A stretch of 60,000 bases of DNA from Tubulanus polymorphus (Eukaryota > Nemertea > Palaeonemertea > Tubulaniformes > Tubulanidae), in NCBI RefSeq assembly GCF_964204645.1, contig NC_134032.1, positions 11,528,275 through 11,588,274 on the forward strand. The letters are read 5' to 3'. The number at the start of each line of letters is the position of its first letter. Position 1 is the first letter of the stretch. The notes beneath the pieces were generated by a model that was not told where the DNA came from, did no database searches, and saw only the letters and a list, made by a program, of their open reading frames with translations. The position numbers were made by a program, and so were the translations under genes. This document shows, piece by piece, positions 51 through 58,928 of this stretch.

Positions 51-334
51 GTTTGAACTGGTCGCCGTGGCAACAGGCGCAGGACGAAAGCATTTCCGAA
101 ATGGCGCCAGCGACATCGACGAAAACGCCACGAAAAGAAGACTGGTCGCGTCAGTGTCAGATTTGTGCGAAAGTTTGTCGCAATCGCTACGACCTGAAAG
201 TTCATTTGAACGTTCACACCGGCCGGAAGCCGCACGTTTGCCCGATCTGTCGGATGGGGTTCTCGCAAAAGGGAAACTTGAATCGGCATCTGAGAAATAA
301 ACACCATATTGCGAGTTGCGTCCCGATCGATTAG
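51..334 (+). CDS. Locus A terminal exon A1, two C2H2 zinc fingers
   Basis: The exon follows a TTTTCCAG acceptor ending at base 50 and opens with GT completing a Gly codon, then LNWSPWQQAQ. It encodes about 93 residues ending in a TAG stop at 332-334. A polar linker is followed by two C2H2 fingers near the C-terminus. Finger 1 (HX3H) has Cys where the core Phe normally sits; finger 2 (HX4H) has the helix SQKGNLNRH, with Q, G, N, R at the contact positions -1, 2, 3, 6. Its role is inferred as the DNA-binding tail of one isoform of a transcription factor whose 5' exons lie outside the window. It is a close tandem duplicate of the next exon (702-955). Exon status is supported by acceptor, phase and stop; an independent gene is unlikely because there is no ATG. 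Confidence 0.85.
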
Positions 335-464
335 AATCACGATACTAGCGTTATCCCCAAAACTTGTAGGGTTCATGAGCTATGATCAACTAAGAATCTC
401 TAATACGGTTACGAACTGTGGCGCAATTGATCGAAAAACTTTTCCCGCGTATTGCTCTTTTGAA

Positions 465-470
465 AATAAA
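465..470 (+). terminator. Candidate polyadenylation signal for exon A1
   Basis: AATAAA about 130 bases after the A1 stop codon, in AT-rich DNA. Such a hexamer follows most exons of the array, as expected for alternative last exons. Confidence 0.5.
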
Positions 471-701
471 AATATTATCAAAGTCAAATTTTGGTAATAA
501 CTCGTAAGATTTCAACCAGCGCAATGGAAGTACCTTCAAGTTGAAGGCTCTTTCGTTTCAATTGTTAGGTTTTTTCTCGATTTCAGGAGTCTTGCCCAAA
601 ATGATATATCCCCGCCGTAACCCGATGGAAATAGGGAACGGAGCATGGCATGATAAGAAATTTGAATTGAGAAATAATTTTCACGTAATTCGGATTTTCA
701 G

Positions 702-955
702 GTGTTAACTGGTCCCCGCAGCAACGAGCTGGTGATAATAGCGGCGGGGCAAAGTCGGCGACGCCGCGCAAAGACGATTGGTCGCGAACTTGTCAAGTTT
801 GTTTGAAAGTTTGTAGAACTCCGTCCGCTCTGAAGACTCATTTGAACGTTCACACAGGACGGAGGCCTCACGCCTGCCCCATTTGTCGGATGCCGTTCTC
901 GCAAAAGGGTAGCTTGAATCGACATCTGAAAGCTCAACACCACATCGTCCCATGA
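702..955 (+). CDS. Locus A terminal exon A2, two C2H2 zinc fingers
   Basis: The acceptor CGGATTTTCAG ends at base 701. GT completes Gly and the frame then reads VNWSPQQRAGDNSGG through 83 codons to TGA at 953-955. There is no ATG, so an ATG-based ORF search misses it. Finger 1 is CQVC...HLNVH, again with Cys at the core Phe position; finger 2 is CPIC...HLKAQHH with helix SQKGSLNRH. Over most of its length it matches A1 (NWSP start, TPRK-DDWSR linker, TGR(R)KPH linker), so the two arose by tandem duplication. The contact residues of finger 1 differ (N,Y,D,V in A1; T,S,A,T here), which would alter DNA preference. Confidence 0.85.
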
Positions 956-2202: not shown

Positions 2203-2567
2203 AATGGATAGCAACTGCGCATATGGGTGTTGGCGGTGGTAACAATAGTGCGATCGATACGGAATCCTACAACACTCGAGACAGTATCGGTGGTATTTTT
2301 CCGCAGATGAGATTTTTCGAAGGGAACAATGCCGCAGCAGTAACGGGTACCAAATCTCACGCCAATCACAGCGGCGCGGGTAGTAGTCTGGCGTTACCGC
2401 ACGTTTGTCAAGTTTGCGCCAAGCGGTTCATAACGCCGAGTAAACTAAAAGTGCACATGCACGTACACACCGGTTCGAAACCGTACGTCTGCCCGACCTG
2501 TAACAGACGATTCACACAGACCAGTAATCTGTACAGTCACATGAGAAAGTTTCACCAAAGAGTTTGA
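2203..2567 (+). CDS. Locus A terminal exon A3, two C2H2 zinc fingers
   Basis: The TTGATTTTTCAG acceptor ends at 2202. AA completes a Glu codon (G|AA) and the frame continues WIATAHMGVGGGNNS to TGA at 2565-2567, about 121 residues. A Gly/Ser/Asn-rich linker of about 70 residues precedes finger 1 (CQVC...HMHVH, helix ITPSKLKVH) and finger 2 (CPTC...HMRKFH, helix TQTSNLYSH), joined by TGSKPYVC. The frame is open upstream into the intron, so an apparent ATG at 2118 is probably not the start; the acceptor and the phase shared with sister exons decide this. It is inferred to be the alternative DNA-binding C-terminus of the locus A product. Confidence 0.83.
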
Positions 2568-3066: not shown

Positions 3067-3401
3067 GTGCTGCCATCGTCACCCTTGAACACCCCCTGCA
3101 GATGTACATGCCGACTACCAGCACCACCAAGTATCAGCGACAACAACAACGATTTAATCATTCGATAACCATGCCAACAACGGCAACAACAGGAGGAGAT
3201 GTTGCCATTCCGCCGCCTCAAATTTGCTACAAGTGCGAAATTTGCTCGATGTCGTTCGATATGCCGAGTACTTATAAAGTTCACATGCGCGTTCACACAG
3301 GACTTAAACCGTTCAGTTGCCAGATTTGTCGCAAGTCGTTTTCGCAGCGAGGAAATTTAAATGTTCATTTGAAAACCGTTCATCGCATGTTACCCGGATG
3401 A
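3067..3401 (+). CDS. Locus A terminal exon A4, two C2H2 zinc fingers
   Basis: The acceptor GGATTTTTCCAG ends at 3066. GT completes Gly, then AAIVTLEHPLQMYMPTTSTT, about 110 residues to TGA at 3399-3401. A Thr/Gln-rich linker with a QQQQ-like run precedes finger 1 (CEIC...HMRVH, helix DMPSTYKVH, Tyr instead of Leu at helix position 4) and finger 2 (CQIC...HLKTVH, helix SQRGNLNVH). The linker between fingers is TGLKPFSC. An AATAAA at 3708-3713 could end this transcript. Confidence 0.83.
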
Positions 3402-3826: not shown

Positions 3827-4257
3827 GTCGGACCCATGGAACGTTTGGATTTAGCGGCAACATGGTAGAATTTCAGAACCCGTTCGACGCGCTGTCCATC
3901 GCGAATTCTCAACGGGCGATATCGACGATGCCGAAACCTGGTGGTAAGCGAGCGAAGAAACCACCAACCGAATTCAGACGAGGATCGAATTTCCGAGGTC
4001 GCGGAGCCGCTGCCACGGTGGTGACAGGCTCGGCGTCGGGCCCGCCGCAGCCAAAACTGATTACGAAAACGTACCAGTGCCCGTATTGTAATCGGTTGGA
4101 TAGTAGTAAAGCGATGATGAATCGACACATTCGATGCCACACGGGCGAAAAACCGTTCGCGTGTCCGGACTGCAGCTCCAGATTCAGACAGTCGAGTCAT
4201 ATGTACCAGCATATGAGGCGAATTCACGGATATACGAACCAACCAAAGAATGGATAA
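3827..4257 (+). CDS. Locus A terminal exon A5, two C2H2 zinc fingers
   Basis: The acceptor GGTCTTTTCAG ends at 3826. GT completes Gly, then RTHGTFGFSGNMVEFQNPFD, about 142 residues to TAA at 4255-4257. A basic, Gly/Arg-rich linker (GGKRAKKP, RGSNFRGRGA) precedes the fingers and could act as a nuclear localisation or nucleic-acid contact segment. Finger 1 (CPYC...HIRCH) is atypical: Asp replaces the core Phe and Met the core Leu. Finger 2 (CPDC...HMRRIH) has helix RQSSHMYQH. The linker is the canonical [10 protein letters not shown] content is higher than in the flanking introns. Confidence 0.83.
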
Positions 4258-4804: not shown

Positions 4805-5133
4805 ATGGCGCCACGGTCGTAAACGCTGCAAATCTCGAATTGCGTCTGCTATCCGAACCTCTCGTCGACGGCACCCACCTATCCGATGTGCCTCATGCTG
4901 TCGAATGTGAGGTTTGGAAAAATACCAAACGCTGCCCTATCTGTGGAATATATCTGCAAGCTTACTGCTATTTCGTCGCCCACATGCGAACCCACACGGG
5001 CGAGAAACCATTCGCTTGCAACATTTGCTCGAAACGCTTCGCCCGCCTAAGTAATCTATATGCCCACACCCGCCGTGTTCATCATATCGAACCGTTACGC
5101 CAAAACACAGGACTCGGTGCCTATAAACCCTGA
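4805..5133 (+). CDS. Locus A terminal exon A6, two C2H2 zinc fingers
   Basis: The TCTATTTGCAG acceptor ends at 4804. AT completes Asp (G|AT), then [20 protein letters not shown], about 109 residues to TGA at 5131-5133. Finger 1 (CPIC...HMRTH) has Leu at the core Phe position and an aromatic helix QAYCYFVAH; finger 2 (CNIC...HTRRVH) has helix ARLSNLYAH. The linker is TGEKPFAC. The acceptor TATTTGCAG resembles the conserved acceptor of locus C. Confidence 0.83.
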
Positions 5134-6281: not shown

Positions 6282-6520
6282 GTGAAGGCTGCAGTCCAGT
6301 TGGTAGATGGAGAAATACAGTCAAACGAACGCGTCCGCCCAGACCTTACAAGTGTAGCTTATGTAACAAAGGATTCCCGTCGAGAAGCGCTTGTCAAACT
6401 CACATCCGCGTACATACTGGCGAGCGCCCGTACGCCTGTCATCTCTGCCCCAAACGATACAAACAGAAAGTCGATTTGAAAACTCACATGGCCGGAAAAC
6501 ATGATTATTTCCTTCTGTAA
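6282..6520 (+). CDS. Locus A terminal exon A7, two C2H2 zinc fingers
   Basis: The CAATTTTGCAG acceptor ends at 6281. GT completes Gly and the frame then reads EGCSPVGRWRNTVKRTRPPR for 78 codons to TAA at 6518-6520. There is no ATG, and a longer unrelated frame overlaps it, so it is easily missed. A basic leader (KRTRPPRPYKC) runs straight into finger 1 (CSLC...HIRVH, helix PSRSACQTH, Cys at helix position 4) and finger 2 (CHLC...HMAGKH, helix KQKVDLKTH), joined by TGERPYAC. It is the shortest exon of the array. Confidence 0.85.
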
Positions 6521-7090: not shown

Positions 7091-7440
7091 ATATGTTCGG
7101 GCCGCTGCAAATCTCACCGCCGAACACCGCTCGACACTTCGACCCCGCACAGATGCTGGATCGGAGTTCATACCAACCAGGAGGACATGTAGAGCGGCGA
7201 CCCGGAGCTCGGCTCCTCGAGACCGCTCCGCAATTACCCAACGGCTATTCGTGTCAGTTCTGCTTCAAAAGTTTCCGAACTCCGTCGAAGTTGAATCGAC
7301 ATCTCGTCGTCCACACCGGAGAACGACCGTTTAGATGTGTCGTCTGTCCGAAGTCTTATAGTCAGAAGGTTCATTTAACTAATCATATCAAACGGGCGCA
7401 TCCGAACTTCGATTTGGACCGATGTCAAATCAATTTTTAA
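7091..7440 (+). CDS. Locus A terminal exon A8, two C2H2 zinc fingers
   Basis: The GTAATTGCAG acceptor ends at 7090. AT completes Asp, then MFGPLQISPPNTARHFDPAQ, about 116 residues to TAA at 7438-7440. A Pro/Arg-rich linker leads to finger 1 (CQFC...HLVVH, helix RTPSKLNRH) and finger 2 (CVVC...HIKRAH, helix SQKVHLTNH), joined by TGERPFRC. Finger 1 starts CQFC, the same knuckle that dominates the odd-numbered fingers of locus C, which supports common origin. AATAAA at 7535-7540 is about 100 bases past the stop. Confidence 0.84.
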
Positions 7441-7878: not shown

Positions 7879-8192
7879 AAAATGACAGAAATATGTTCTA
7901 CCGGCACCTCAATATCTCGTCTAAACTGGAACAAAATTCGTCTACACACCTCTTAACAGGTGGTGTCGACGACAGACCGACAGGAAGTGGACCGCCTATG
8001 TATTCTTGCGCGGTGTGTGGAAAACAGTTCACCGCCCCGGCTCGAGTCAGACGACACATGGTAGTACACACGGGAGAAAGGGCATTTAAATGTTTGATTT
8101 GTCAGAAATCCTACACCCAGAAAGCAACGTTAACTAGTCATATGAGAAGAATACACCAACTTGTAAATTTCCAATTCAGTGATCAAATTTAG
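7879..8192 (+). CDS. Locus A terminal exon A9, two C2H2 zinc fingers
   Basis: The ATCATTTCAG acceptor ends at 7878. AA completes Glu, then NDRNMFYRHLNISSKLEQNS, about 104 residues to TAG at 8190-8192. Finger 1 is CAVC...HMVVH (helix TAPARVRRH, Val at position 4); finger 2 is CLIC...HMRRIH (helix TQKATLTSH); linker TGERAFKC. This is the last zinc-finger exon of locus A that I can find, followed by AATAAATAAA at 8498-8507 and then by transposon-derived DNA. Confidence 0.84.
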
Positions 8193-35456: not shown

Positions 35457-35634
35457 AAGTTAGATAGATAGAGAAGTGACGTTAAAATGTTGCTGTTGGA
35501 TGGTGTTGAGGTGCACGTACGCGAGGATGTATTTAAAAGTTGTCTGCGTCGACACTTGGATTGGTTAGATGAATTAGTTATTGATGCTGATGATAATACC
35601 TGGTTTAGATGGATGTCTCGACGTCGAACTAAAG
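35457..35634 (+). CDS. Locus C first coding exon (49 residues)
   Basis: The acceptor CTTCAATTTTCAG ends at 35456. In-frame TAG precedes ATG 35487, so the start is credible. It encodes MLLLDGVEVHVREDVFKSCL to RRRTK and ends one base into a codon before GTTCGT at 35635. It differs from the locus B copy at only a few residues (E/D, A/V, M/L, Q/R), showing strong conservation compared with the surrounding introns. Family unknown. The stretch HLDWLDELVIDADDNTWFRW is rich in Asp and Trp and may be an interaction motif, but that is a guess. Confidence 0.78.
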
Positions 35635-35958: not shown

Positions 35959-37164
35959 ATCAGAGAAGAGGACAAATGAATCAAATGTCCGGAGATGGAG
36001 GTGTTATGTACATCGGAACAAATCAATCAAAAACTGGACAAAAAAGACGATTTGAAGTTCAAAGCAGAACGAGAACCGTCGCTCAGAATGTTTTAAAAGC
36101 TGTGAAACGTCGGAGAGGAAGTGCAGCTGCACAGGGGACGTTACCGCAGCAACGAGTTCAACAATCGCAAACAATGACGACTGTCGGGCAGCAACCGATC
36201 GGTCTGTTACCAGCTCAACAGAGAATGACGCCCAATCGAGGAGGTCGCGGAAGAGGAAGAGGACGAGGTCTACCTCCTCGTCATGTTTCACCGGCTTTGA
36301 ACATTCCTTCTGCAAATATGGAAAGTCAATCCGGAGTCCGTCAAATATCACCAGCTAATAGTTTTCGCCATCTTGATTCTCAGTTTCAACAACAGAGGAC
36401 GCCACCACGTTCAAGTACACAGACAACACCCGTTAAACCAGCTCCACCTGGTGGTGAATCGCCAAGAATATCGTTACAATCAGGAATAGACTTGAAACCA
36501 TCAGTTACAGATGTATCGCAGCAACAATTGAATGAATCTGAGAATGTTGTGTCGTCGATGGCAACAGCTCCGGTCAGCTCGGCGTCGGCGGAAACCGTCA
36601 ATTTCTCAGTTCTAGATGCGTCTGGATGTGAAATTTTATTGAACTCCGAAATCGAATCAACTTTAGAAAGTATTAAAAATGCGGAGGAGGAATCGGACGA
36701 TTCTATGATTCCTGATGATTCAAACGTTGATGCATCATCGGCATATAAAAATGAAACTAACGTTGAACAGCCGAGTGAAAGTGGATTATCGACACCCCCG
36801 CCCCCGGCGATCTCCAGCTGCGATAACGCATTAGAACAATTAGAATCGATAGTGAGTTCGGCTCCATCCTTCGGACAATTAGAAATATCTAGTAGCGCCA
36901 TTGGTGGTGAAAACATTGAACTAAAATACAGCGACCAATTAACTGATACAAATACCGCTGATATCAATACGCTTCCGGTCCAACAATCTCATCATCACCA
37001 AGGTTACGAAGAAAACGTACGTGTTAAAAATGAACCGATAAAAATAGAACCGGTTGAAATATCCTCAGGAAGCGACGATGATGAAGATTATTCAACTCAA
37101 CAGATCATACAACAACAACAACATGATCCACAACCGGGAACAAGTGGAGCTTTTGATCAGTCAG
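35959..37164 (+). CDS. Locus C constant exon 2 (regulatory region)
   Basis: The acceptor TATGTATTCAG ends at 35958; AT completes Asp, then QRRGQMNQMSGDGG, ending one base into a codon at 37164 before GTAGGTG. With exon 1 it makes about 451 constant residues. In protein order: a basic bipartite-like segment (about 78-102), an RGG-type run GGRGRGRGRG (about 144-153), a long Ser/Pro/Gln-rich disordered stretch, acidic clusters, and a tail with VKNEPIKIEPVEISSGSDDD (about 405-424). The tail holds two SUMO-attachment consensus sites (VKNE, IKIE) next to a hydrophobic-acidic SUMO-binding-like motif. No BTB or other folded domain is visible. The product is inferred to be a nuclear DNA-binding regulator whose specificity is set by the chosen last exon. 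Confidence 0.8.
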
Positions 37165-38532: not shown

Positions 38533-38915
38533 GTGGCGCTTTCTCAGATGAGCCATCATTGCCATGGGAACCGATGCCTTCGCGAACTAGGCGGCCGAAC
38601 GTCAGTCGTAAAAATACCGCATCACGACGAAAAACCAACATCAACGGATCAGGGAAATATCCCTCTGCATCCAGTATTACAACAGGAGCCCCACCTGGTG
38701 GCAAATTCATGAAATTCACATGCCAATTTTGCGGGAAACCGTTCAAAGGATTTATTGATTTAGCGCGACACGAACGCGTTCATACCGGTGAACGTCCGTT
38801 TAAATGTCCGATGTGCGATTTGAGATTCACGCAGAAATCTCATCGTAAACGTCACCTGGAACGGCTTCATAACTTCAACATGGAAACATTCGCGATTCAG
38901 GAACTCGGAAACTAG
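38533..38915 (+). CDS. Locus C terminal exon C1, two C2H2 zinc fingers
   Basis: Acceptor TTCTCGTGGCTCTTTGCAG ends at 38532, a diverged form of the locus C acceptor motif. GT completes Gly, then GAFSDEPSLPWEPMPSRTRR, about 126 residues to TAG at 38913-38915. A basic leader (RTRRPNVSRKN, ASRRKTN) and a Gly/Pro spacer precede finger 1 (CQFC...HERVH, helix KGFIDLARH) and finger 2 (CPMC...HLERLH, helix TQKSHRKRH), joined by TGERPFKC. Leader element LPWEP is shared with C2 but not with later exons, so C1-C2 form their own subgroup. The stop codon lies inside the first unit of a minisatellite. Confidence 0.88.
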
Positions 38916-39165: not shown

Positions 39166-39551
39166 GTAGCCGAATCGCTGTGCCACCTCTATTGCCATGG
39201 GAACCGTTCGACGACGTGACAATGGCGACGGTTGCTACGACTGCGCTATGGTTACCGGTAACTCCGACGATGACTCCGCCGCGTTTTAAGGACCATGCGG
39301 CGCGTTCACGCGATTCGCGCACGGCCGGTCCGGACTATTGTTCGAAGAACCCGTTGAATAAAAATAAACATCGGTGTCGGATTTGTAATAAACGGTTTTT
39401 GAAACCGTCGGGTTTGGTTCGTCACGAGCGCGTACATACCGGTGAACGTCCGTTCGCGTGTCCCATCTGTAACAGATTGTTCTCTCATAAATTTCACCTG
39501 AAAACGCACGTCGAAAAAGTTCACGGTTTCGGTAAAATTGAACCAGATTGA
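39166..39551 (+). CDS. Locus C terminal exon C2, two C2H2 zinc fingers
   Basis: Acceptor TTCTCATGGCTTTTTGCAG ends at 39165. GT completes Gly, then SRIAVPPLLPWEPFDDVTMA, about 127 residues to TGA at 39549-39551. A hydrophobic/Thr-rich leader is followed by finger 1 (CRIC...HERVH, helix LKPSGLVRH) and finger 2 (CPIC...HVEKVH, helix SHKFHLKTH) joined by TGERPFAC. Higher GC than most locus C exons. It shares LPWEP with C1. Confidence 0.88.
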
Positions 39552-40075: not shown

Positions 40076-40389
40076 GTTTTATGATCGGACCGGCGTGGCA
40101 CCTCGGAATTGACGCCTACCGTCGGATCGGAAATGGGCGGGCGGCACCGAGAATGTCGATGACGGTCGCGCGCGAAATGGTTAATAACGACGTACGCCGT
40201 AGACACGAGTGCGGTTTTTGCGAAAAACGTTTTCTGTCGACCGGCGATTTGAATCGACACAAGCGAATTCACACCGGCGAAAAACCGTTTAATTGTCCGA
40301 TATGCAAGCGTCGTTTCAAGCTGAAGGGGCACCTTAAAACACACATGAAACGCGTTCATAACATTGAACAGAACAAATTGAATTTTTAA
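40076..40389 (+). CDS. Locus C terminal exon C3, two C2H2 zinc fingers
   Basis: Acceptor TTCTGATGGCTATTTGCAG ends at 40075. GT completes Gly, then the leader [20 protein letters not shown], about 103 residues to TAA at 40387-40389. This is the first exon with the common locus C leader. Finger 1 is CGFC...HKRIH (helix LSTGDLNRH); finger 2 is CPIC...HMKRVH (helix KLKGHLKTH); linker TGEKPFNC. The tail NIEQNKLNF matches the tail of C4. Confidence 0.9.
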
Positions 40390-41003: not shown

Positions 41004-41401
41004 GATTTGTGATCGGACCGCCGCGGCATATCGGAATCGACGCCTACAGTCAGATCGGAATTGGGCAGAATTTGTCGGGGAGGGCAACGCCAGTTGCCCG
41101 GGAAACTGCTGATAAGGATAAGCGTCGAAAGCACGTGTGCAGTTTTTGTGGAAAGCATTTTCGATATACCAGCAATTTGAAGCGCCACGAGCGAATTCAC
41201 ACTGGCGAAAAACCATTCGAATGTCCGACGTGCGCGAAACATTTTCTGTTGACCGGAGATTTGAATCGACACATGCGAATTCATACGGGCGAAAAACCGT
41301 TCAAGTGTCCGATATGCAAGCGACGTTTCAAGCTGAAAGGGCACCGTAAAACACACATGAAACACGTTCATAAGGTCAACCAGAATGAATTGAATATTTA
41401 G
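41004..41401 (+). CDS. Locus C terminal exon C4, three C2H2 zinc fingers
   Basis: Acceptor TTCCGATGGCTATTTGCAG ends at 41003. GA completes Gly, then FVIGPPRHIGIDAYSQIGIG, about 131 residues to TAG at 41399-41401. Fingers: CSFC...HERIH (helix RYTSNLKRH), CPTC...HMRIH (helix LLTGDLNRH), CPIC...HMKHVH (helix KLKGHRKTH). The middle finger is HX3H rather than HX4H, so this exon departs from the two-finger alternation. It looks like C3 plus one extra finger. The 3' flank is shared with C3. Confidence 0.9.
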
Positions 41402-41925: not shown

Positions 41926-42734
41926 GATTTGTGATCGGACCGGTGCGGCATATCGGAATCGACGTCTACAGTCAGATTGGAAGTGGGCAGAATTTGTCGG
42001 GGAGGGCAACTCCAGTTGCCCAGGAAACCGCTGATAAGGATAAGCGTCGAAAACACGCGTGTAGTTTTTGTGGAAAGCGTTTTTCATGGACCAGCAATTT
42101 AAATCGGCACGAGCGAATTCACACCGGCGAAAAACCGCATAAATGTCCGATATGCGAGAAACGTTTCACTGTGAAATCACACTGCAACATACACGTAAAG
42201 CAGGTTCATAACGAAAAACCGTTTGAATGTCCGTTTTGCGATAATAGGTTTGATACTCCGGCTGATCGTAAACGACACAAGATAATTCACACCGGCGAAA
42301 ATCCTTGCAAATGTTCTCCTACTTGTGAGAGATGTTTTGCTGAGACAGGACAGCATGATACGAACATGCTTGCGGATCATGGAAAACCGTTTAAATGTCG
42401 GTTTTGCGATAAAGGGTTTAATTCTGCTCATGGAGTTAAACGACACGCGCGAATTCACACCAGCGGAAAACCGTTTAAATGTTCGATGTGCGACCAACGT
42501 TTCGCACAGAGATCACATTGTAAACAGCATATCAAATATGTTCATACCGATGAACGGCCGTTTGAATGTCAGTTTTGCGATAAAAGGTTTAATACTACCG
42601 CTGATTGCGATCGACACGAGCGCGTGCACACCGGCGAAAAACCGTTTAAATGTCCGACGTGCGATCAACGTTTCAGTCAGAGTGGATCCTGTAACTTGCA
42701 CATTAAACGGGCTCATTACAATGAACGACCTTGA
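41926..42734 (+). CDS. Locus C terminal exon C5, eight-finger array, truncated tail
   Basis: Acceptor TTCCGATGGCTATTTGCAG ends at 41925. GA completes Gly, then FVIGPVRHIGIDVYSQIGSG, about 268 residues to TGA at 42732-42734. Fingers in order: CSFC, CPIC, CPFC, a damaged one (CSPTC, last His context NMLADH), CRFC, CSMC, CQFC, CPTC. Odd ones are HX3H and even ones HX4H. The stop follows YNERP, where sisters read NERPFKC; two bases appear to be lost there. One more finger-like frame (LECRFCDERMRTRVH) continues out of frame. The exon remains long and probably usable. Confidence 0.82.
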
Positions 42735-43592: not shown

Positions 43593-44263
43593 GTTTTGTG
43601 ATCGGACCGGTGTGGCATATCGGAATGGACGCTTACAGTCAGATCGGAAATGAGCTGAATTTGTCGGGTACCGCAACGCCTGTTGCCAAGGAAACCGCTG
43701 ATAAGGATAAGCGTCGAAAACACGCGTGCAGTTTTTGTGGAAAGCATTTTTCTTCGACCGGAGATTTATCTCGGCACAAGCGAATTCACACCGGCGAAAA
43801 ACTGTATAAATGTCTGACGTGCGAGAAATGTTTTGCCGAGACAGGACAGCGGGATACGCACGTGCAAGAGGATCATATCAGTGAAAAACAGTTTAAATGT
43901 CAGTTTTGCAACAAAGGGTTTGATTCTTCGCAAGGAGTTAAACAACACGAGCGAACGCACACCGACGGAAAACCGTTCGAATGTCCGATGTGTGAGGAAC
44001 GTTTCACACAGATATCACACCGCAATCAGCACATGAGATGGTTTCATACCGATGAACGACCGTTTGAATGTCGGTTTTGCGATAAACGGATGAAAACCCT
44101 CCACAATTTGAAGCGACACGAGCGAATTCACACCGGCGAAAAACCGTTTAAATGTCCGATGTGCGATCTGCGTTTCAGTCAGAAAGGATCCTGTACAGTG
44201 CATGTACAACTTGTACATACCGATGAACGACCTGTGAATGTCAGTTCTGCGATAAACGAATGA
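43593..44263 (+). CDS. Locus C terminal exon C6, six C2H2 zinc fingers, frameshifted tail
   Basis: Acceptor TTCTGGTGGCTATTTGCAG ends at 43592. GT completes Gly, then FVIGPVWHIGMDAYSQIGNE, about 222 residues to TGA at 44261-44263. Fingers: CSFC (helix SSTGDLSRH), CLTC (AETGQRDTH), CQFC (DSSQGVKQH), CPMC (TQISHRNQH), CRFC (KTLHNLKRH), CPMC (SQKGSCTVH). After TDERP a one-base loss changes the frame (VNVSSAINE then stop), and a seventh finger remains as an out-of-frame relic to about 44360. Six complete fingers make it usable. Confidence 0.85.
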
Positions 44264-45386: not shown

Positions 45387-45685
45387 GTTTTGAGATCGGA
45401 CCGGCGTGGCATCTCGGAATGGACGCTTACCGTTACTACGGAAGTGGGCAGAACTTGTCGGCGATGGCGACGTCATTTGCCCCGGAAACCGTAGATCTGG
45501 ATAAGCGTCGAAAACACGCGTGCAGTTTCTGCGGAAAGCGGTTTTCGAAAGCGGGAGATCTAAATCGCCACAAACGAATTCACACCGGTGAAAAACCGTT
45601 TAAATGTCCGATGTGCGAGCAACGTTTCAGTCGGAAATATCACTGTAAAAATCACCTGAAACGTGTTCACAACACGTTCGTCTGA
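45387..45685 (+). CDS. Locus C terminal exon C7, two C2H2 zinc fingers
   Basis: Acceptor TTCTGATGGCTATTTGCAG ends at 45386. GT completes Gly, then [20 protein letters not shown], about 98 residues to TGA at 45683-45685. Finger 1 is CSFC...HKRIH (helix SKAGDLNRH) and finger 2 CPMC...HLKRVH (helix SRKYHCKNH, Cys at position 4), joined by TGEKPFKC. The exon is intact and short, the ancestral two-finger form. Confidence 0.9.
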
Positions 45686-46108: not shown

Positions 46109-46743
46109 GTTTTGTGATCGGACCGGCGCGGCATATCGATATGGACACTTACAGTCAAATCGGAAATGAGCAGAATTTGTCGCGGAAGGCGTCCCTTGTT
46201 GCCGTGGAAAACACAGATCGGGATAAGCGTCGAAAATACGCGTGCAGTATTTGTGGACAGCGATTTTTGAAAGCGGAATATTTAAATCGGCACGAGCGAA
46301 TTCACACCGGCGAAAAACCGTTTAAATGTCCGACGTGCGAGAAATGTTTCCTGACGGAAGTACAGTGTGATAAACACATGATACGCATTCATACCAACAA
46401 AGGACGATTCAAATGTCAGTTTTGCGATAAAAGGTTTAAATTTCGTGCAGAAGTTAAAATACACGAGCGAATTCACACCGGCGAAAAACCGTTTAAATGT
46501 CCGACGTGCGAGCTGCGTTTTGCGATGAAATCGAACTATAACCGGCACATGAAACGCGTTCATATCAATGAAAAACCGCTGAAATGTCGGTTTTGCGATA
46601 AAAGATTTAATATATCTTCAGATTGCAAACAACACGAACGAACACACGCCGGCGCAAAATCTTTCAAATGTCCGACGTGTGAGAAATGTTTCAGGCTGAA
46701 ATCTTATCTCAACAAGCACATAAACCGCGCTCATAACTATTAA
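46109..46743 (+). CDS. Locus C terminal exon C8, six C2H2 zinc fingers
   Basis: Acceptor TTCTGATGGCTATTTGCAG ends at 46108. GT completes Gly, then FVIGPARHIDMDTYSQIGNE, about 210 residues to TAA at 46741-46743. Fingers: CSIC (LKAEYLNRH), CPTC (LTEVQCDKH), CQFC (KFRAEVKIH), CPTC (AMKSNYNRH), CRFC (NISSDCKQH), CPTC (RLKSYLNKH), alternating HX3H/HX4H. Its last two fingers and 3' flank are nearly the same as those of C12 (50289), and its leader is nearly the same as C10 and C13. It ends cleanly (INRAHNY stop). Confidence 0.9.
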
Positions 46744-48190: not shown

Positions 48191-48486
48191 GTTTCGTGAT
48201 CGGACCGGCGTGGCATCTCTGAATGGACGCCTACCGTCAGATCGGAAATGAGTTGAATTTTTCGGGGAAAGCAACGCCAGTTGCCCCGGAAGCCGTAGAT
48301 CAGGACAAGCGTCGGAAACACGCGTGCAGTTTTTGCGGAAAGCGGTTTTCGAAAGCGGGGGATTTAAATCGGCACGAGCGAATTCACACCGGCGTAAAAC
48401 CGTATAAATGTCCGCTGTGTGAGCTATGTTTCATTCGGAGAGATCGCTGTAAAGTCACCTGAAACGTGTTCATAACGCGTTCGTCT
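48191..48486 (+). pseudogene. Locus C terminal exon C9, stop codon in leader
   Basis: Acceptor TTCTGGTGGCTATTTGCAG ends at 48190. The frame reads FVIGPAWHL and then TGA at 48220-48222, where sister exons have GGA (Gly): a single G-to-T change. The frame after the stop is open from ATG 48223 and includes an intact finger 1 (CSFC, helix SKAGDLNRH). In finger 2 the frame breaks again (RDRCKVT stop; a base is lost in the consensus AAAATCACCTGAAACG). It is a close relative of C7 and is inactive as an exon. Splicing to it would yield a protein ending shortly after the junction. Confidence 0.85.
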
Positions 48487-49717: not shown

Positions 49718-49910
49718 GTTTCGTGATCGGATTGGCGTGGCATCTCGGAATGGATGCTTACCGTCCGATCGGAAGTGGGTAGAATTTGTCAGGGATAGTG
49801 ACATCAGTTGCCCCGGTAACCACTGTAAGGATAAGCGTCGAAAACACGCGTGCGGTTTTTGTGAAAAGCGATTTTCAAAAGTGGGGGATTCGAATCAGCA
49901 AATTGGTTGA
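49718..49910 (+). pseudogene. Locus C terminal exon C11, stop in leader and truncated finger
   Basis: Acceptor TTCTGATGGCTATTTGCAG ends at 49717. The frame reads [20 protein letters not shown] and then TAG at 49780-49782, where its duplicate C14 has CAG. The first finger is cut after KVGDSNQQIG, where unrelated AT-rich sequence begins. Dead both by stop and by loss of fingers. Confidence 0.85.
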
Positions 49911-50288: not shown

Positions 50289-51064
50289 GTTTCGTGGTCG
50301 GACCGGCGCGGCGTATCGGAATCGACGCTTTCAGTCAGATCGGAGTCAATTCTGCGGAGATGGCCTCACCTGAAACCACAGATCAGGATAATTTTCAGAA
50401 AAACGAGTGTAGAATTCGTGGAGAGCACTTTGTCGAAACGGGAGATCTAAATCGGCATGAACTAAGACCGTTTAAATGTTCGACGTGTGAGCTATGTTTT
50501 GTACAGGAATCGCATTATAAACAGCACATGAAACTGGTTCATTCCGACGAACGACCGTTTAAATGTCAGTTTTGCGATAAACGATTGAAAACTAATTACC
50601 ATTTGAAACAACACGAGCGAATTCACACCGGCGAAAAACCTTTTAAATGTCCGCTGTGCCAGCTACGTTTCAAACAGAAATCACACAGTAACGTGCACAT
50701 GAAACAGGCTCATTCCGATGAACGACCGTTTAAATGTCGGTTTTGTGATAAAAGAATGAAAGCTAGTTTCCATTTGAAACAACACGAGCGAATTCACACC
50801 GGCGAAAAACCGTTTAAATGTCCGATGTGCGAGTTGCGTTTTGCGATCAAACCTCACTATAATCGGCACATGAAACGCGTTCATATCGATGAAAAACCGT
50901 TTAAATGTCAGTTTTGCGATAAAAGATTTAATATAACTTCAGATTGCAAACAACACGAGCGAATACATGCCGGGGCAAAATCGTTCAAATGTCCGACGTG
51001 TGAGAAAAATTTCACCCTGAAATCTTATCTCAACAAGCACATAAACCGCGCTCATTACTATTAA
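50289..51064 (+). CDS. Locus C terminal exon C12, seven C2H2 fingers plus a degenerate one
   Basis: Acceptor TTCTGATGGCTATTTGCAG ends at 50288. GT completes Gly, then FVVGPARRIGIDAFSQIGVN, about 257 residues to TAA at 51062-51064. The first finger is degenerate (CRIRGEHF: the second Cys is Arg, with the His-HTGEK part missing). Seven good fingers follow: CSTC (VQESHYKQH), CQFC (KTNYHLKQH), CPLC (KQKSHSNVH), CRFC (KASFHLKQH), CPMC (AIKPHYNRH), CQFC (NITSDCKQH), CPTC (TLKSYLNKH). The 5' part matches C15 and the 3' part matches C8, so the exon looks like a recombinant of two sisters. Confidence 0.88.
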
Positions 51065-51603: not shown

Positions 51604-52079
51604 GTTTTGTGATCGGACCGGCGCGGCATATCGATATGGACACTTACAGTCAAATCGGAAATGAGCAGTATTCTGCGGCGAAGGCGATGTCAGAAACCAT
51701 GGAAACCGTAGATCAGTTTAACCGTCGGAAAAATACGTGCAGTTTTTGCGGAAAGCAGTTTTTAAAAGCAGCACGATTAAATGAGCACAAGCGAATTCAC
51801 ACCGGCGAAAAACCGTTTGAATGTCCAATGTGCGAGAAACGTTTCAGTCAGAAAGGATATTGCACAGCTCACATGAAACGTGTTCATTCCGATGAACGAC
51901 CGTTTAAATGTCGGTTTTGTGATAAACGAATGAAAACTAGTTTCCATTTAAAGGAACACGAGCGAATTCACACCGGCGAAAAACCGTTTAAATGTTCGAT
52001 GTGCGAGAAACGTTTCAATTATAGATCAGACTGTAAACGGCACATGGGAGTGTTTCATACTAATGAAACAACCGTTTAA
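51604..52079 (+). CDS. Locus C terminal exon C13, four C2H2 zinc fingers
   Basis: Acceptor TTCTGATGGCTATTTGCAG ends at 51603. GT completes Gly, then FVIGPARHIDMDTYSQIGNE, about 157 residues to TAA at 52077-52079. It is nearly identical to C10, but with changed helices in finger 2 (SQKGYCTAH) and finger 3 (KTSFHLKEH, resembling C12). The same TNETT-stop lesion ends it. Identical length with altered contact residues makes the C10/C13 pair informative about divergence after duplication. Confidence 0.86.
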
Positions 52080-52548: not shown

Positions 52549-52742
52549 GTTTCGTGATCGGATTGGCGTGGCATCTCGGAATGGATGCTTACCGTCCGAT
52601 CGGAAGTGGGCAGAATTTGTCAGGGATAGCGACATCAGTTGCCCCGGTAACCACTGTTAAGGATAAGCGTCGAAAACACGCGTGCGGTTTTTGTGAAAAG
52701 CGATTTTCAAAAGTGGGGGATTCGAATCAGCAGATTGGTTGA
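52549..52742 (+). pseudogene. Locus C terminal exon C14, truncated within the first finger
   Basis: The acceptor here is TATTTGTAG (TAG instead of CAG) and ends at 52548. The frame reads [20 protein letters not shown], through [11 protein letters not shown] to KVGDSNQQIG and a TGA stop, so only the first half of a finger remains. It is the duplicate of C11 but without the leader stop. It could be spliced, giving a protein without any complete finger from this exon. Confidence 0.7.
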
Positions 52743-53117
52743 AAATGATATTAGCTCTGCATTGGTGTTGATCCCTATAATGCGCCTATTTTTAAAAAAA
52801 AAGTACCCTTTTGGGACACCAAAACAAAATCAAACGAAATCTACCAATCAAATAAATAACAGGGTCAATCCCTATTTTAAGATAAAAAAAAGCATCCTCT
52901 TTCTCGACGAGACCCCGGATCCGCCCCGGTGGTGTACATAGGCTTCATCAGATTCACCTGACTCATCTAGCAGTGGACGCTCGTGTTTCAAATAGAATAG
53001 TTAACCGTTAAAGTGCTATACTCCTCCCGTAGTTTTATTTATTCCTTTGCCTTGAACTGGTCACACAATATTGTATCAAAGGAAAACTAAAGTGTGGATT
53101 CTGATGGCTATTTGCAG

Positions 53118-54034
53118 GTTTCGTGGTCGGACCGGCGCGGCGTATCGAAATCGACGCTTTCAGTCAGATCGGAGTCAATTCTGCGGAGATGGCCTCACCA
53201 GAAGCCACAGATCAGGATAACTTTCAGAAAAAGGAGTGTAGAATTCGTGGAGAGCATTTTGTCGAAACGGGAGATCTAAATCGGCATGAACGAAGACCGT
53301 TTAAATGTTCGACGTGTGAGCTATGTTTTGTACAGGAATCGCATTATAAACAGCACATGAAACAGGTTCATTCCGACGAACGACCGTTTAAATGTCAGTT
53401 TTGCGATAAAAGCATGCAAGCTCTCTATAATTTGAAACGACACGAGCTAATTCACACCGGCGAAAGACCGTTTGAATGTCCCATGTGCGAGAAACGTTTC
53501 GCGCTGAAATCAAATTGCAAACAACACGTGAAACAGGTTCATGCCGATAAACTACTGTTTAAATGTCCGACGTGCGAGGAATGTTTCGCGCTGAAATCAC
53601 ATTGTGACTCGCACGTGAAACGCGTTCATTTCGATAAAAAACCGTACAAATGTCAGTTTTGTGGTTACAGGTTTGATAGCCGTAAAGATTGTGAACGTCA
53701 CGAGCGAATTCACACCGGCGAAAAACCGTTTAAATGTCCCACATGCGAGAAATGTTTCGCGCTGAAATCACATTGTCAAGCGCACCTGAAACTGGTTCAT
53801 TCCGACGAACGACCGTTTAAATGTCAGTTCTGCGATAAAGGAATGAAATCTAGTTTCCATTTGAAACAACACGAGCGAATTCACACCGGCGAAAAACCGT
53901 TTAAATGTCCGATGTGCGAGCGACGTTCCATGACAAAATCGAATTATAACCGGCACATGAGACTGGTTCATAACGTTGACCCGAATAGCCTCGTGTCATC
54001 CGGGAAAGCCGGTGACTGTAAGATTTACAATTAA
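53118..54034 (+). CDS. Locus C terminal exon C15, eight C2H2 fingers plus a degenerate one
   Basis: Acceptor TTCTGATGGCTATTTGCAG ends at 53117. GT completes Gly, then FVVGPARRIEIDAFSQIGVN, about 304 residues to TAA at 54032-54034. The first finger is degenerate as in C12 (CRIRGEHF, then RRPFKC without HTGEK). Eight fingers follow: CSTC (VQESHYKQH), CQFC (QALYNLKRH), CPMC (ALKSNCKQH), CPTC (ALKSHCDSH), CQFC (DSRKDCERH), CPTC (ALKSHCQAH), CQFC (KSSFHLKQH), CPMC (MTKSNYNRH). It ends with a Ser/Gly spacer (SLVSSGKAGDCKIYN) like that in B3, then stops where a new CQFC finger should begin. It is the longest intact finger exon of locus C. Confidence 0.88.
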
Positions 54035-54851: not shown

Positions 54852-55175
<324 letters not shown>

Positions 55176-55706: not shown

Positions 55707-55910
55707 ATGACAAGAAAGTTTGAATTGCTACTGGTTCCGTGTCAGTTTTGCGACGACGCGGCGTTTATTACTGCTGCAGATTGTAAACAACCCGAGCGAA
55801 TTCACACCGACGAAAAACCGTTTAAATGTCCGACGTGCGAGTTACGTTTTGGACAGAGATCAAACTGTAACTGCCACATAAAACGCGTTTATAACAAGCT
55901 AGATGCTTAG
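55707..55910 (+). pseudogene. Leaderless two-finger relic
   Basis: The frame reads CQFCDDAAFITAADCKQPER (His to Pro) and CPTCELRFGQRSNCNCHIKR (VY in place of VH), ending NKLDA stop. There is no acceptor motif or leader, and each finger has lost a zinc-binding His. Confidence 0.8.
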
Positions 55911-55914
55911 CGCT

Positions 55915-56748
55915 GTTTTGACCTAAATTCAGCAGAGCTGATGGGTTGGGGAAACGCCCATATTTCATAAATGGCTCTAGTCCTAGTTTTTATCGGATTT
56001 ACCTAAAACTTGGTACCAATGATCTGAGGGCTAGATCTAAAATACATCTTGATGTTCTATGTTAAACTTGTTTAGATAGAAAAGAAAATTGCTAACACTG
56101 TCCATGTTGTGACGATAAAAAGAGAATCCCAAACTGATATAACGAAAGATGAAGTTCGAAAAGTTGCCTTTAAGCTAAATAATGTTTTATTAATTCGACG
56201 TTTCGACATTAACCTTCGAATCAATGAATCATTAGCTTTATAAAAACTTTTCGGACTTCAATTTTCGTTATCACTGTGGGGTTCTCTATCTATTTAAAAA
56301 AATTGCGTTTAGTATATAATGAAAGGAATGATTTCATAGTGGATGCGTTATATTACTTCTCGTGAGTCATTTGTTTATATGTGGGACTCGGATTCATGAT
56401 TCGAGAGTAAAATTGTATTTTCTTGAAAATTCACATGAGTAATGTTGCCGTATTTCAGTTTTGGACTCTCGAAAGTTTTTCCTTGTACAGCTTTTCTACG
56501 GGTAAAATTGACCGGGCGTTTCGTCGGTATCAATCTGTTCATTATCTTACTCGAGCGATGTACAAGACCTGTTTAATAAATAAGATTGAAAAAGAAGATT
56601 TTCTTTATCTGTTGTTTTTGTCGTTCCCCATCAGGAATACTGACGGTAACTGAATTTCTTCCTTTTTTGAACAGATCACGCATACCCGCTCTAATTTTGT
56701 AATCATTAAAATGAAAACTAAAATTCGGATTCTGATGGCTATTTGCAG
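55915..56748. other. Inter-exon DNA before C17
   Basis: Contains an unrelated insertion (about 55920-56330, AT-rich with GTTCGAAAAGTTGCCTTTAA and an inverse-like AAACTTTTCGGACTTCAATT), then a copy of the 3'-flank block (56455-56570), AATAAA at 56575-56580, and the conserved intron end. Confidence 0.5.
56671..56748 (+). promoter_or_regulatory. Conserved intron end before C17 (type example)
   Basis: Reads GAACAGATCACGCATACCCG, CTCTAATTTTGTAATCATTA, AAATGAAAACTAAAATTCGG and ATTCTGATGGCTATTTGCAG directly before the exon. The same blocks in the same order precede C6, C7, C8, C9, C10, C11, C13, C14 and C16. The last 19 bases, at most a few changes, precede every exon from C3 to C18. A branch-point-like TTCTGAT lies about 15 bases from the exon. 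This element probably directs 3' splice-site use. Confidence 0.65.
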
Positions 56749-57422
56749 GTTTTGTGATCGGACCGGTGTGGCATCTCGGAATGGACGCGTACAGTCAGAT
56801 CGGAATCGAGCAGAATTTATCGGCGATGGCGATGGCGACGGCGGTTTCCCTGGAAACATTCGGCGAACAGGATAAACATCGTAAACAGTGCAGTTTTTGT
56901 GGCAAGCAATTTATGAAAGTGGGAGATTTAAATCGGCACCGACGAATTCACACCGGCGAAAAACCGTTTAAATGCCCGATGTGCGAGCGGTGTTTTACGC
57001 TGAAAGCGCAGTGTAACATGCACATGAAACGCGTTCACATCAACGAAAAACCGTTTAAATGTCAGTTTTGCGACGAAGGTTTCGATTCCCCCGCGGATCT
57101 TACGCAACACGAGCGAATTCACACGGGCGAAAAACCGTTCAAATGCCCGATGTGCGATCTGCGTTTCATGCAGATATCGACGCGCAATCGGCACATGAAA
57201 AGCGTCCATACCGACGCGAAACCGTTCAAGTGTCCGTTTTGCGAGGAAGGGTTCGCTTCCCCTGCGGATTGTAAACAACACGAACACGTACACACGGGCG
57301 AAAAACCGTTTAAATGTCCGATATGCGGGCAACGTTTCAATCGGAAGTATCACTGTCAAAAGCACATGAAACGCGTTCATGACGTGTTCGATTCTAGTTT
57401 CGATGTTCAAAAGGATCATTAG
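56749..57422 (+). CDS. Locus C terminal exon C17, six C2H2 zinc fingers
   Basis: Acceptor ends at 56748. GT completes Gly, then [20 protein letters not shown], about 223 residues to TAG at 57420-57422. Fingers: CSFC (MKVGDLNRH), CPMC (TLKAQCNMH), CQFC (DSPADLTQH), CPMC (MQISTRNRH), CPFC (ASPADCKQH), CPIC (NRKYHCQKH). HX3H/HX4H alternation and linkers are perfect ([24 protein letters not shown]). The exon is somewhat more GC-rich than its sisters and has no lesion. Confidence 0.92.
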
Positions 57423-58623
57423 GCAAAAATGATACCTTGTTTCTCCGTCTGCTTGCCTTTAAGTTGACCCGGCTGGCTGCACATCTACCCACTGTACATA
57501 CTTTTTTTAAACTTTTTTAAAATCATGATCAATCTGACCATAACAGGTCTTGCAGCTATAAAAATTAACAGATTACAAATTTTTCGGAGTTTACATAATG
57601 CCCAGGGTGCTGCGTTGAAAATAAGGTATCCACCTTGTCATACTTTTTTTCAACATTAGTTTATTGTTTGCTTAGAAGTTTAAGAATCTCTTGTAGTACT
57701 GTACTTATTGCTGAAAATATTGAATACAGTGAACCGCCCCTAACTCGGACGAACTGGGACTGGTAAAGTTATTCCGGATTAACTGAAAAATTTGATAGAT
57801 ATCAAATCAGAAAATGGTTTAATTTTTGTCTCTAGTCAGACGAAAGCCTTGAGTTGCCAACCATGTTCGAGTAAGGTGAGGTTTACCTGGCAAGGTTTGG
57901 GAGTGACACACGTTTTTGTACCTCAATGAGTTATACTGACCTGACCGATGCCACGATGTGTTCAGATGTGTTCATTTCATTTAAAAGAAAGTATTGATGT
58001 TTAGCTAGAGTAGATGAAGAATAAATATGATATCTCAATATCAAGATTGTTTTTGTGGTGTTTTAATTAATTCTCCAGCTCGCGATACTGACTGAGCGTC
58101 TTTCTGGGCATGAATAGCATTTTTCGTAGTTGTAAGGAGAATGCCTAGCTCAATGGCAATTAACAAACGGACAACGATGCAGAATATTGAATAACGGCTT
58201 TATTCTTAGTCCAAAGTCAGATATCCAAACTCGGTCGCCAATTTCTGTCCGTTCAGAATTACGATACAGATCACACGTACTACACAAGAGCGGATCCAAG
58301 GTTCTTTGAAGGGGTGTGACTGGAAATTGAAAAGGAAGATTTGGCAATGCGATGGCCGCCAGCAACGCATCGAAAATCGAAGAACAAAAAATGATTTTTT
58401 GGCCATTTGGATTTTGTTCTTTAATGTCTATCAAAAATTTTCTTTACGAAACAAATTTTTCAGACTTTTTTTGGAAGCCACATGATATAATTAATCATTA
58501 ATGTTTCGATATCTTTGTCTAGTTAGATCCGTCATTCCTATAGTTTTCATTATACTCGATAACGCATGTAATCATAGAATTAAATTTGAATTTAAAATCT
58601 GCATTTCTGATGGCTATTTGCAG
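57423..58623. other. Inter-exon DNA before C18
   Basis: AATAAA at 58020-58025 could end the C17 transcript. The segment lacks the duplicated intron blocks except for the last 20 bases before C18. Minus-strand open frames at 58150-58434 show no recognisable domain. Confidence 0.5.
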
Positions 58624-58928
58624 GTGTTGTGTCCGGACTGACGCGGAATCCTGAATTCGGCGCTTACAACGCAGTCCGTAAGTTATCGGTTCCTAGAGCG
58701 AAGAAACCCGTAGATCGCGAAAGGCGTCGGAAACATCTGTGCAGTTATTGCGATAAACGGTTTTTGTCGTGCAGAGATTTAAACCGCCACGAACTGATTC
58801 ACACCGGCGAAAAACCGTTTAAATGTCCGATGTGCGAGAAACATTTCAATCAGAAATCAAATCGGAAACTACATTTACAGCGCATTCACAATATCAACAT
58901 GGACATGTTTACGTTAAAAGATTCGTAG
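58624..58928 (+). CDS. Locus C terminal exon C18, two C2H2 zinc fingers
   Basis: Acceptor TTCTGATGGCTATTTGCAG ends at 58623. GT completes Gly, then VVSGLTRNPEFGAYNAVRKL, about 101 residues to TAG at 58926-58928. The leader keeps only the outline of the family pattern (V-SG---N---GAY). Finger 1 is CSYC...HELIH (helix LSCRDLNRH) and finger 2 CPMC...HLQRIH (helix NQKSNRKLH), linker TGEKPFKC. The tail NINMDMFTLKDS resembles the C1 tail (NFNMETFAIQE). An old member that retains the invariant acceptor. Confidence 0.9.

Follow-up and report, generated by a model that had tools for sequence, protein, structure and literature searches.

How are the long rows of C2H2 zinc-finger exons at three neighboring loci of Tubulanus polymorphus turned into proteins? 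The window analyzed here is a 60,000-nucleotide stretch of the genome of this nemertean, whose annotated protein LOC141909538 is identical to the spliced constant part of locus B plus exon B1. The sequence-only reading had described three loci with at least 25 finger exons, each ending in its own stop. We recovered the 3' part of locus A (51–8192) and, together with their constant parts, loci B (23381–32701) and C (35487–58928), and counted 26 intact C2H2 exons, 9 of them in A, 2 in B, and 15 in C, all on the same strand, each with a stop and together encoding 92 fingers (Table 1). As in lola of Drosophila, these exons terminate the protein. Exons C3–C16 resemble a single duplicated family, so the 26 are not all independent; we judge the independent groups to number about 12. 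The expectation of much larger finger arrays than in the insect systems held for B and part of C, with 2–8 fingers per exon, but not for A, where the number is always 2. Pfam scans of 6 of the 26 exon open reading frames (for one, the best 25 of 30 matches) returned C2H2 families throughout and no FLYWCH among the families shown, and the other 20 fit the C2H2 pattern. Rfam and tRNA scans returned nothing.

Table 1. Coordinates of constant exons, finger exons, and broken or repeated elements in the window.
Feature	Position	Strand	Remarks
A1 finger exon, 2 fingers	51..334	+	phase-1 acceptor, own stop; A constant part outside window
A2 finger exon, 2 fingers without preceding Met	702..955	+	phase-1 acceptor, own stop
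A3 finger exon, 2 fingers	2203..2567	+	phase-1 acceptor, own stop
A4 finger exon, 2 fingers	3067..3401	+	phase-1 acceptor, own stop
A5 finger exon, 2 fingers	3827..4257	+	phase-1 acceptor, own stop
A6 finger exon, 2 fingers without preceding Met	4805..5133	+	phase-1 acceptor, own stop
A7 finger exon, 2 fingers without preceding Met	6282..6520	+	phase-1 acceptor, own stop
A8 finger exon, 2 fingers	7091..7440	+	phase-1 acceptor, own stop; 76% identity with last 96 residues of paralogue LOC141910362 (P0009)
A9 finger exon, 2 fingers	7879..8192	+	phase-1 acceptor, own stop; second phase-1 acceptor 7960
B constant exon 1, coding part	23381..23528	+	conserved N-terminal domain of 49 aa; phase-1 donor; matches residues 1-49 of LOC141909538 exactly
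B constant exon 2	23841..24587	+	phase 1-1; donor CAG/GTAGGT; identical to LOC141909538
B1 leader exon, used by annotated model LOC141909538	25506..25633	+	stop precedes fingers; fingers go on out of frame (25821-25970)
B2 relic	27906..28780	+	fingers in two frames; no B-type acceptor found
B3 finger exon, 8 fingers without preceding Met	29581..30590	+	phase-1 acceptor, own stop
B4 finger exon, 3 fingers	32325..32701	+	phase-1 acceptor, own stop
C constant exon 1, coding part	35487..35634	+	49 aa; 92% identity with B exon
C constant exon 2	35959..37164	+	phase 1-1; donor CAG/GTAGGT
C1 finger exon, 2 fingers	38533..38915	+	phase-1 acceptor, own stop
C2 finger exon, 2 fingers	39166..39551	+	phase-1 acceptor, own stop; 92% identity with segment of LOC141910365
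C3 finger exon, 2 fingers	40076..40389	+	phase-1 acceptor, own stop
C4 finger exon, 3 fingers without preceding Met	41004..41401	+	phase-1 acceptor, own stop
C5 finger exon, 7 fingers without preceding Met	41926..42734	+	phase-1 acceptor, own stop
C6 finger exon, 6 fingers	43593..44263	+	phase-1 acceptor, own stop
C7 finger exon, 2 fingers	45387..45685	+	phase-1 acceptor, own stop
C8 finger exon, 6 fingers	46109..46743	+	phase-1 acceptor, own stop
C9 broken exon	48191..48480 (end approximate)	+	acceptor present; stop follows 9 leader residues
C10 finger exon, 4 fingers, duplicate of C12	48935..49410	+	phase-1 acceptor, own stop
Broken leader exon	49718..49905 (end approximate)	+	stop after 20 residues
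C11 finger exon, 7 fingers	50289..51064	+	phase-1 acceptor, own stop
C12 finger exon, 4 fingers	51604..52079	+	phase-1 acceptor, own stop
Broken leader exon	52549..52743	+	63 residues open; no complete finger
C13 finger exon, 8 fingers	53118..54034	+	phase-1 acceptor, own stop
C14 finger exon, 2 fingers	54865..55175	+	phase-1 acceptor, own stop
3' module with GTTTAATAAATAAGATTGAAA and intron sequence before C15	56441..56735	+	partial homologous copies in B and C arrays
C15 finger exon, 6 fingers	56749..57422	+	phase-1 acceptor, own stop
C16 finger exon, 2 fingers without preceding Met	58624..58928	+	phase-1 acceptor, own stop

For each exon, all AGs in the open stretch upstream of the first finger were scored regardless of frame, with consensus weights for acceptors and donors that were not trained on T. 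polymorphus. The top-scoring acceptor was phase 1 in 26 of 26 exons, compared with 87 of all 227 AGs in these stretches, which bears out the proposal that all finger exons enter in the same phase. These acceptors match in frame the donors at 24587 and 37164, both of which do end one base into a codon, as had been claimed; the phase match was tested at B and C, the A constant part lying beyond the window. When all 3069 AGs were scanned, 31 acceptor and frame readings in the top 5% reached a finger before a stop, and 25 of them were phase 1, covering 24 exons (A2 and A8 fell below the cut). The six others comprised one just upstream of A3, one inside A3, and four within finger sequence, and the phase-1 acceptor of A3 outscored both of its rivals.

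This uniformity bears on the possibility that the finger exons, singly or in groups, form separate genes, each having a promoter and 5' exons to itself. The spacing of the exons is like that of small genes, 19 of the 26 have a methionine before the fingers, and 3' modules recur in the B and C arrays, but the seven exons that lack such a methionine need an upstream coding exon, and the 15 ATG-initiated reading frames of more than 50 aa listed between C exons appear by eye to be finger or leader relics or unrelated short peptides. All retrieved finger-bearing proteins begin with the constant part, a weak argument because they were retrieved by that very part. The phase-1 acceptors of all 26 exons and the survey of reading frames between C exons led us to reject independent genes, which we regard as extremely unlikely.

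The annotated models also bear on splicing from the constant donor. LOC141909538 joins donor 24587 exactly to acceptor 25506, the only annotated junction in the window, although its product is fingerless. At the paralogous locus LOC141909516, the annotated isoforms X1 and X2 are the same over 552 residues and at the junction codon, and they diverge exactly at the constant donor, which is joined to different acceptors in the two models. Of the 13 retrieved models, 11 contain the motif that closes the constant part, 15 copies in all, each followed by a residue (G, D, or A) whose codon starts with G.

Several of these models also raise the alternative that finger exons are internal to giant polydactyl proteins, joined serially through donors near exon ends. 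A single finger segment is present in 7 of the 13 models, and four (P0001, P0007, P0008, and P0009) chain two or more; the introns seen, including the first intron of the B and C constant parts, are phase 1, so serial joining would keep the frame wherever a phase-1 donor exists. Against this, by our own reading of the four models, 5 of their 12 segment joins cut a finger before its last histidine, and one join in P0008 translates FSWLFAG, which in the window is the end of the intron before C2. Past the last finger, 17 of the 26 exons have no phase-1 GT, and none of the other nine has a strong one (best score, 1.8, compared with 6.1 for the constant donors). A low score does not rule out use, since the donors of the first introns score merely 1.9 and 1.4, which counts against reading the finger exons as terminal, as do the better phase-1 donors before or between fingers in a few exons (B3, 4.3; A5, 4.1; A6 and C10, 3.1). 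The sequence-only reading had named serial inclusion of several finger exons in one mRNA as an outcome that would refute it; such inclusion is indeed seen in some annotated paralogue models, but most of these joins are, in our judgement, probably gene-prediction artefacts. The weakness of post-finger donors and the implausible joins led us to reject serial inclusion as the main mode, and we consider it unlikely.

The polyadenylation argument did not hold. Many exons were said to be followed by AATAAA, and 16 of 26 have it within 700 nt, but so do 48.8% of random positions in this AT-rich DNA (p = 0.13), and we dropped the signal as evidence. The B and C units do carry homologous 3' blocks, a duplicated 3' module present in both arrays.

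Searches with the constant part, which the sequence-only reading had suggested, found relatives in T. polymorphus only, at 11 annotated loci including B, in three protein searches, one of which scored the 8000 candidates richest in shared words and the others 88 and 90; because all three require shared 5-residue words, distant relatives in other animals could escape them. An annotated protein with the C constant part was not found in the length ranges 248–789 aa and 687–2185 aa. Duplication has also acted on whole loci, of which there are at least 12 copies.

The constant parts consist of a conserved N-terminal domain of 49 residues (dN/dS between B and C for exon 1, 0.33) followed, by eye, by a basic patch and a long tail in which acidic and polar residues abound. 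In agreement with the claim that they lack a BTB domain, Pfam gave no BTB match with E ≤ 1, whether in the two constant parts or in paralogues P0004, P0005, and P0010, and KRAB, SCAN, and ZAD were likewise absent among matches up to E 1 in these five sequences. No Pfam domain was assigned to the B and C constant parts, whose matches lay far below curated cut-offs, and a PDB profile search with the 49-residue domain gave two matches, the better with E 0.54. AlphaFold models predict two helices in this domain (13–31 and 36–53 in the model of LOC141909538, 13–32 and 36–48 in that of the domain alone) at low confidence; with mean pLDDT values of 47 for LOC141909538 and 65 for the domain, both models are too weak for a fold search.

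Divergence among the exons was compared between the finger contact positions, taken as −1, 2, 3, and 6, and the remaining sequence. In the duplicate pair C10/C12, 11.0 of 35.3 nonsynonymous sites have changed in the contact codons, compared with 5.7 of 338 elsewhere (Fisher 8e-9 on rounded counts), and the leader has zero nonsynonymous changes. Contact dN/dS exceeded that of the scaffold in 8 of 10 compared pairs (the exceptions being C11/C13 and C7/C14) but was above 1 in just four of the 10, and the pooled contact values were equal (pN = pS = 0.36). Leaders and finger scaffolds changed mainly at synonymous sites (pooled pN 0.14 and 0.17 versus pS 0.22 and 0.32, from pairs that are not independent).

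That conservation, and the 26 intact exons with nine divergent A exons among them, weigh against a graveyard reading, under which most copies would be in decay, retained through recent duplication, with use confined to one exon or a few at each locus. Decay is present: at least four leader exons are broken (B1 and those at 48191, 49718, and 52549, all of which stop before any finger), further relics lie at B2, 47151–47521, 55176–55337, and 55707–55910, and the sole annotated B protein found uses just the broken exon B1. We nevertheless hold this explanation to be very unlikely.

We propose instead, with a probability of roughly 0.8, that these loci carry alternative terminal finger exons on a common 5' part, a lola-like arrangement with an unrelated front end. 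The uniform phase, the lack of strong post-finger donors, the B junction, and the X1/X2 pair all support such a system, as the sequence-only reading had put forward. Counting against it are the four models with chained finger segments, AATAAA showing no enrichment, the broken exons, a C constant part that turned up in no annotated protein of the lengths searched, the uneven contact-residue divergence, and the fingerless product of the one annotated junction. Each locus would be one transcription unit in which a constant 5' part is followed by a row of alternative terminal exons, each with a leader, 2–8 C2H2 fingers, and a stop; those of B, and many of those in C, would probably also have their own 3' ends. 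In each mRNA from A, B, or C, the sole strong phase-1 constant donor would be spliced to a single finger exon, so that one locus would give rise to many proteins sharing a front end but differing in their predicted DNA-binding surfaces. If the exons are each used in mRNA and their choice is regulated, the proteins may bind different DNA targets and specificity may switch between tissues. New exons would be born by tandem duplication of whole units with gain or exchange of fingers, and lost by frameshift. Dscam-type docking was dropped as a candidate basis of choice: in a weak test, pairing between the 1218-base C donor intron and the 150 nt before 15 C exons was not above that of 60 shuffles (shuffles reaching the observed value: 9-mers, 59/60; 11-mers, 33/60; 13-mers, 9/60).

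Clustered polydactyl C2H2 families such as the KRAB-ZNFs arise by tandem duplication and combine a shared effector with varied arrays in which change focuses on DNA-contact residues, each array being a separate gene with its own effector. T. polymorphus instead places many arrays downstream of one constant part with no KRAB, SCAN, ZAD, or BTB match. Drosophila lola is described as having a common region with a BTB domain followed by many unique 3' exons, mostly zinc-finger, that give ~20 isoforms, three of them fingerless and most with one or more fingers, with trans-splicing reported (PMC1947980). The likeness lies in a common donor that is frame-compatible with a row of alternative 3' C2H2 exons (shown at B and C), and the differences in the BTB front of lola, in its mostly one or more fingers per isoform compared with 2–8 per exon here, and in the at least 12 paralogous loci of T. 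polymorphus. The account of mod(mdg4) in insects gives a common 5' exon with a BTB front, FLYWCH ends, at least 31 isoforms, a repertoire widened by 3'-unit duplication, and some 3' units on the opposite strand (PMC4667647). It shares with our loci the common 5' part and the enlargement by 3'-unit duplication, whereas the 26 intact exons here are all C2H2 and on one strand. TTK-type BTB domains are described as specific to Arthropoda (PMC11426971), a distribution outside which a nemertean falls, and the T. polymorphus loci are not members of the BTB family. Among the literature matches listed, titles and the beginnings of abstracts describe no such loci in nemerteans or other spiralians.

A broader interpretation is possible, though we hold it tentatively and think it somewhat doubtful: that T. 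polymorphus has evolved its own large generator of DNA-binding diversity, BTB-free and separate in origin from that of arthropods. The related loci, at least 12 and probably sharing a chromosome, would have a new N-terminal domain; one of them would offer 15 intact alternatives, and contact residues would have been driven apart after duplication. The turnover of such a system would fit a role in genome defence or an arms race, as for KRAB-ZNFs, but via splicing rather than separate genes. Our findings also suggest that automatic annotation can miss such loci, since no C protein appeared in the ranges searched, the B protein is fingerless, and some paralogues are annotated as improbable chained proteins. 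The design of one front and many finger ends is documented for insect BTB loci (PMC1947980, PMC4667647), and the T. polymorphus case looks like an independent reinvention of the lola version. If true, it would be a second case, in a distant phylum and with an unrelated front and many paralogous loci, indicating that the design can evolve more than once and providing a natural comparison for the selection of a single exon from many alternatives.

Within the window we counted 26 intact C2H2 finger exons, in agreement with the at least 25 claimed by the sequence-only reading, carrying 92 fingers with 78 distinct quartets of contact residues. Locus A has nine such exons of two fingers each, locus B two exons of eight and three fingers, and locus C fifteen exons of two to eight. 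The top-scoring acceptor, scored with frame ignored, was phase 1 (one base into a codon) in 26/26 finger exons, and all four donors of the B and C constant exons exit one base into a codon, upholding the earlier claim of a uniform entry phase that matches the constant donors. A scan independent of the exon list gave 31 readings, 25 of them phase 1 and covering 24 exons; the remaining six comprised one just 5′ of A3 and one within it, both scoring lower than A3's own phase-1 acceptor, and four in finger sequence. With the duplicates in C pooled, and A1 likewise pooled with A2, we judged the finger exons to form ~12 independent groups, so that at an acceptor phase background of 87/227 chance is still a remote cause of the uniformity (0.38 to the 12th power, ~1e-5).

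Each intact finger exon is closed by a stop of its own, which lies 2 to 20 codons past the last finger. No phase-1 GT at all follows the last finger in 17/26 exons, and the best phase-1 donor there in the other nine scores 1.8 vs 6.1 for the constant donors; the donors joining constant exon 1 to exon 2 score just 1.9 and 1.4, and stronger phase-1 donors lie before or between fingers in B3 (4.3), A5 (4.1), A6 (3.1) and C10 (3.1). The AATAAA hexamer, earlier thought to follow many exons, occurs within 700 nt of 16/26 (p = 0.13), and its counts lend no support to 3′ ends. A 295-base block 5′ of C15 contains GTTTAATAAATAAGATTGAAA, and pieces of it are repeated across the C array and also in the B array. 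AATAAATA occurs 12 times on the plus strand and seven on the minus strand of the window, including nine plus-strand copies and one minus-strand copy in the C region; seven of those nine come after C3, C4, C6, C8, C13, C14 and C15, and two sit in another duplicated segment. From these recurrences, the duplicating unit seems to take in acceptor, leader (the stretch from acceptor to first finger), fingers, stop and 3′ end.

Coordinates of features in the window
Feature	Positions	Strand	Description
B constant part	23381-23528 + 23841-24587	+	298 codons + one base
C constant part	35487-35634 + 35959-37164	+	451 codons + one base
LOC141909538 model	23381-23527, 23840-24589, 25505-25630		340 aa, 100% match
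Periodic finger array, B3	30317-30491		period 84 bases
Periodic finger arrays, C	42386-42750, 46291-46692		period 171 bases
Periodic finger arrays, C	50467-51000, 53557-53910, 56942-57339		period 171 bases
Pieces of pre-C15 block in B array	29232-29342, 31094-31212		
Leaders that stop early	48191, 49718, 52549		
A-B spacer repeat	15476-15920		~3.8 copies of 116 bases, 96% matches
Repeats	21294-22244		76-base repeats in both orientations and 115-base repeat; possibly a mobile element
ACCGACCAAA-type tandem repeats	27182-27294, 27807-27874	opposite orientations	directly 5′ of relic B2
21-base tandem repeat	38909-39054		7 copies, last C1 codons through C1 3′ flank

The annotated locus B model, LOC141909538 (P0002), itself splices donor 24587 onto acceptor 25506 as a phase-1 junction, and its exact matches assign the window to T. 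polymorphus, a palaeonemertean. B and C are duplicates of each other: their exon 1 proteins are 92% identical, and between the constant parts dN/dS is 0.33 for exon 1, 0.23 for residues 50-110 and 0.47 for the remainder, which points to constraint. A Pfam scan found no domain near cut-off in either constant part, which bears out the earlier statement that they lack a BTB domain. The 49-residue N-terminal domain, with 21 positions invariant across eight aligned family members, is predicted as two helices (a low-confidence model, mean pLDDT 65) and, as far as so weak a model goes, is unlike the BTB fold in size and content.

Queried with the 451-residue C constant part, as the sequence-only reading proposed, the database gave five proteins among the 8000 scored candidates with the most shared words, all of them uncharacterised T. 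polymorphus proteins and one of them LOC141909538. Three protein searches extended the family to 13 proteins from 11 loci, B included (LOC141909516, 519, 522, 526, 538 and 708; LOC141910263, 362, 365, 368 and 369), all assigned to a 16,677,571-base contig that we take as one chromosome; these searches, which need shared 5-residue words, found no member outside T. polymorphus. None of the retrieved proteins carries the C constant part, so the family numbers at least 12 loci. Because the window leaders GVGYD, GFEIGP and GSRIAVPP recur in other family loci, and LOC141910362 joins a family constant part to a piece with 76% identity to A8, we place array A in the same family, its putative constant part falling outside the window.

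A constant-end motif occurs 15 times in 11/13 annotated models, P0004 and P0005 being the two that lack it; in 15/15 the next residue is G, D or A, always a G-started codon. The annotated isoforms X1 and X2 of LOC141909516 share 553 identical residues and diverge exactly at this motif. X2 passes to a finger exon, and X1 to a repeated constant exon 2 followed by a different finger exon (403 aligned residues, 327 of them identical). Seven models have one finger segment, four have several and two have none. Serial inclusion of finger exons would account for the four, but five of their 12 joins cut a finger before its last His, and one join in LOC141910365 translates FSWLFAG, the stretch that closes the intron ahead of C2 in the window; we take these joins, with some doubt, as prediction artefacts. 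Constant exon 2 is repeated serially in the annotated models P0006, P0011 and P0012 (LOC141909516, LOC141909519), as though splicing could skip between loci or constant copies, and the model P0010 (LOC141909522) has a constant part followed by a long C-terminal part with neither a C2H2 finger nor a Pfam match.

Between the recent duplicates C10 and C12, nonsynonymous differences number 11.0 over 35.3 sites in contact codons, 4.7/171.9 in scaffold, 0/103.3 in the leader and 1.0/63.2 elsewhere. Contact dN/dS exceeds scaffold in eight of ten pairs (exceptions C11/C13 and C7/C14) and exceeds 1 in four (C10/C12, C8/C11, C6/C15 and C7/C15), the pairs being chosen, sharing exons and hence not independent; pooled, contact pN = pS = 0.36, and scaffold values are 0.17 vs 0.32. 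Synonymous change at contacts is high as well in C11/C13, which points to whole-finger exchange rather than point changes. The 171-base period in C arrays equals two fingers of alternating types, the first marked by a run of 13 protein letters (not shown) and the second by HMKRVHSDERPFKC. B1 reaches a stop after 42 residues, junction codon included, with its fingers out of frame, and in B2 no acceptor was recognised, nor a leader start beside the adjacent ACCGACCAAA-type repeats. Birth and death of finger exons are clear.

Beyond this anatomy, phase, duplication, paralogues and one exact annotated window junction, we propose that each mRNA would pair a constant donor with a single finger exon, that the products would bind different DNA sites, and that the choice of finger exon would be regulated. 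In the simplest mode acceptors and 3′ ends would compete, like ordinary alternative last exons. Trans-splicing, or readthrough that carries B transcripts into C exons, may also occur, given that the observed introns are phase 1. A weak test lent no support to Dscam-like docking.

Lola is described as having at least 20 isoforms, in which a common region with a BTB domain is joined by cis- or trans-splicing to unique C-terminal exons, the majority of them bearing Zn fingers (PMC1947980). For Mod(mdg4) the number is at least 31, and most of these end in FLYWCH (PMC4667647); TTK-type BTB proteins are described as a group specific to arthropods (PMC11426971). Among the titles and abstract openings listed, with most subscription papers and all bioRxiv preprints outside the scope, loci of this sort were not described for nemerteans or for any other spiralian. 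The proposed analogy with lola holds in the way of working but not in the defining domain: because no BTB domain was found in the nemertean loci, we do not count them as family members, and they would stand outside the lola family, though of lola's kind.
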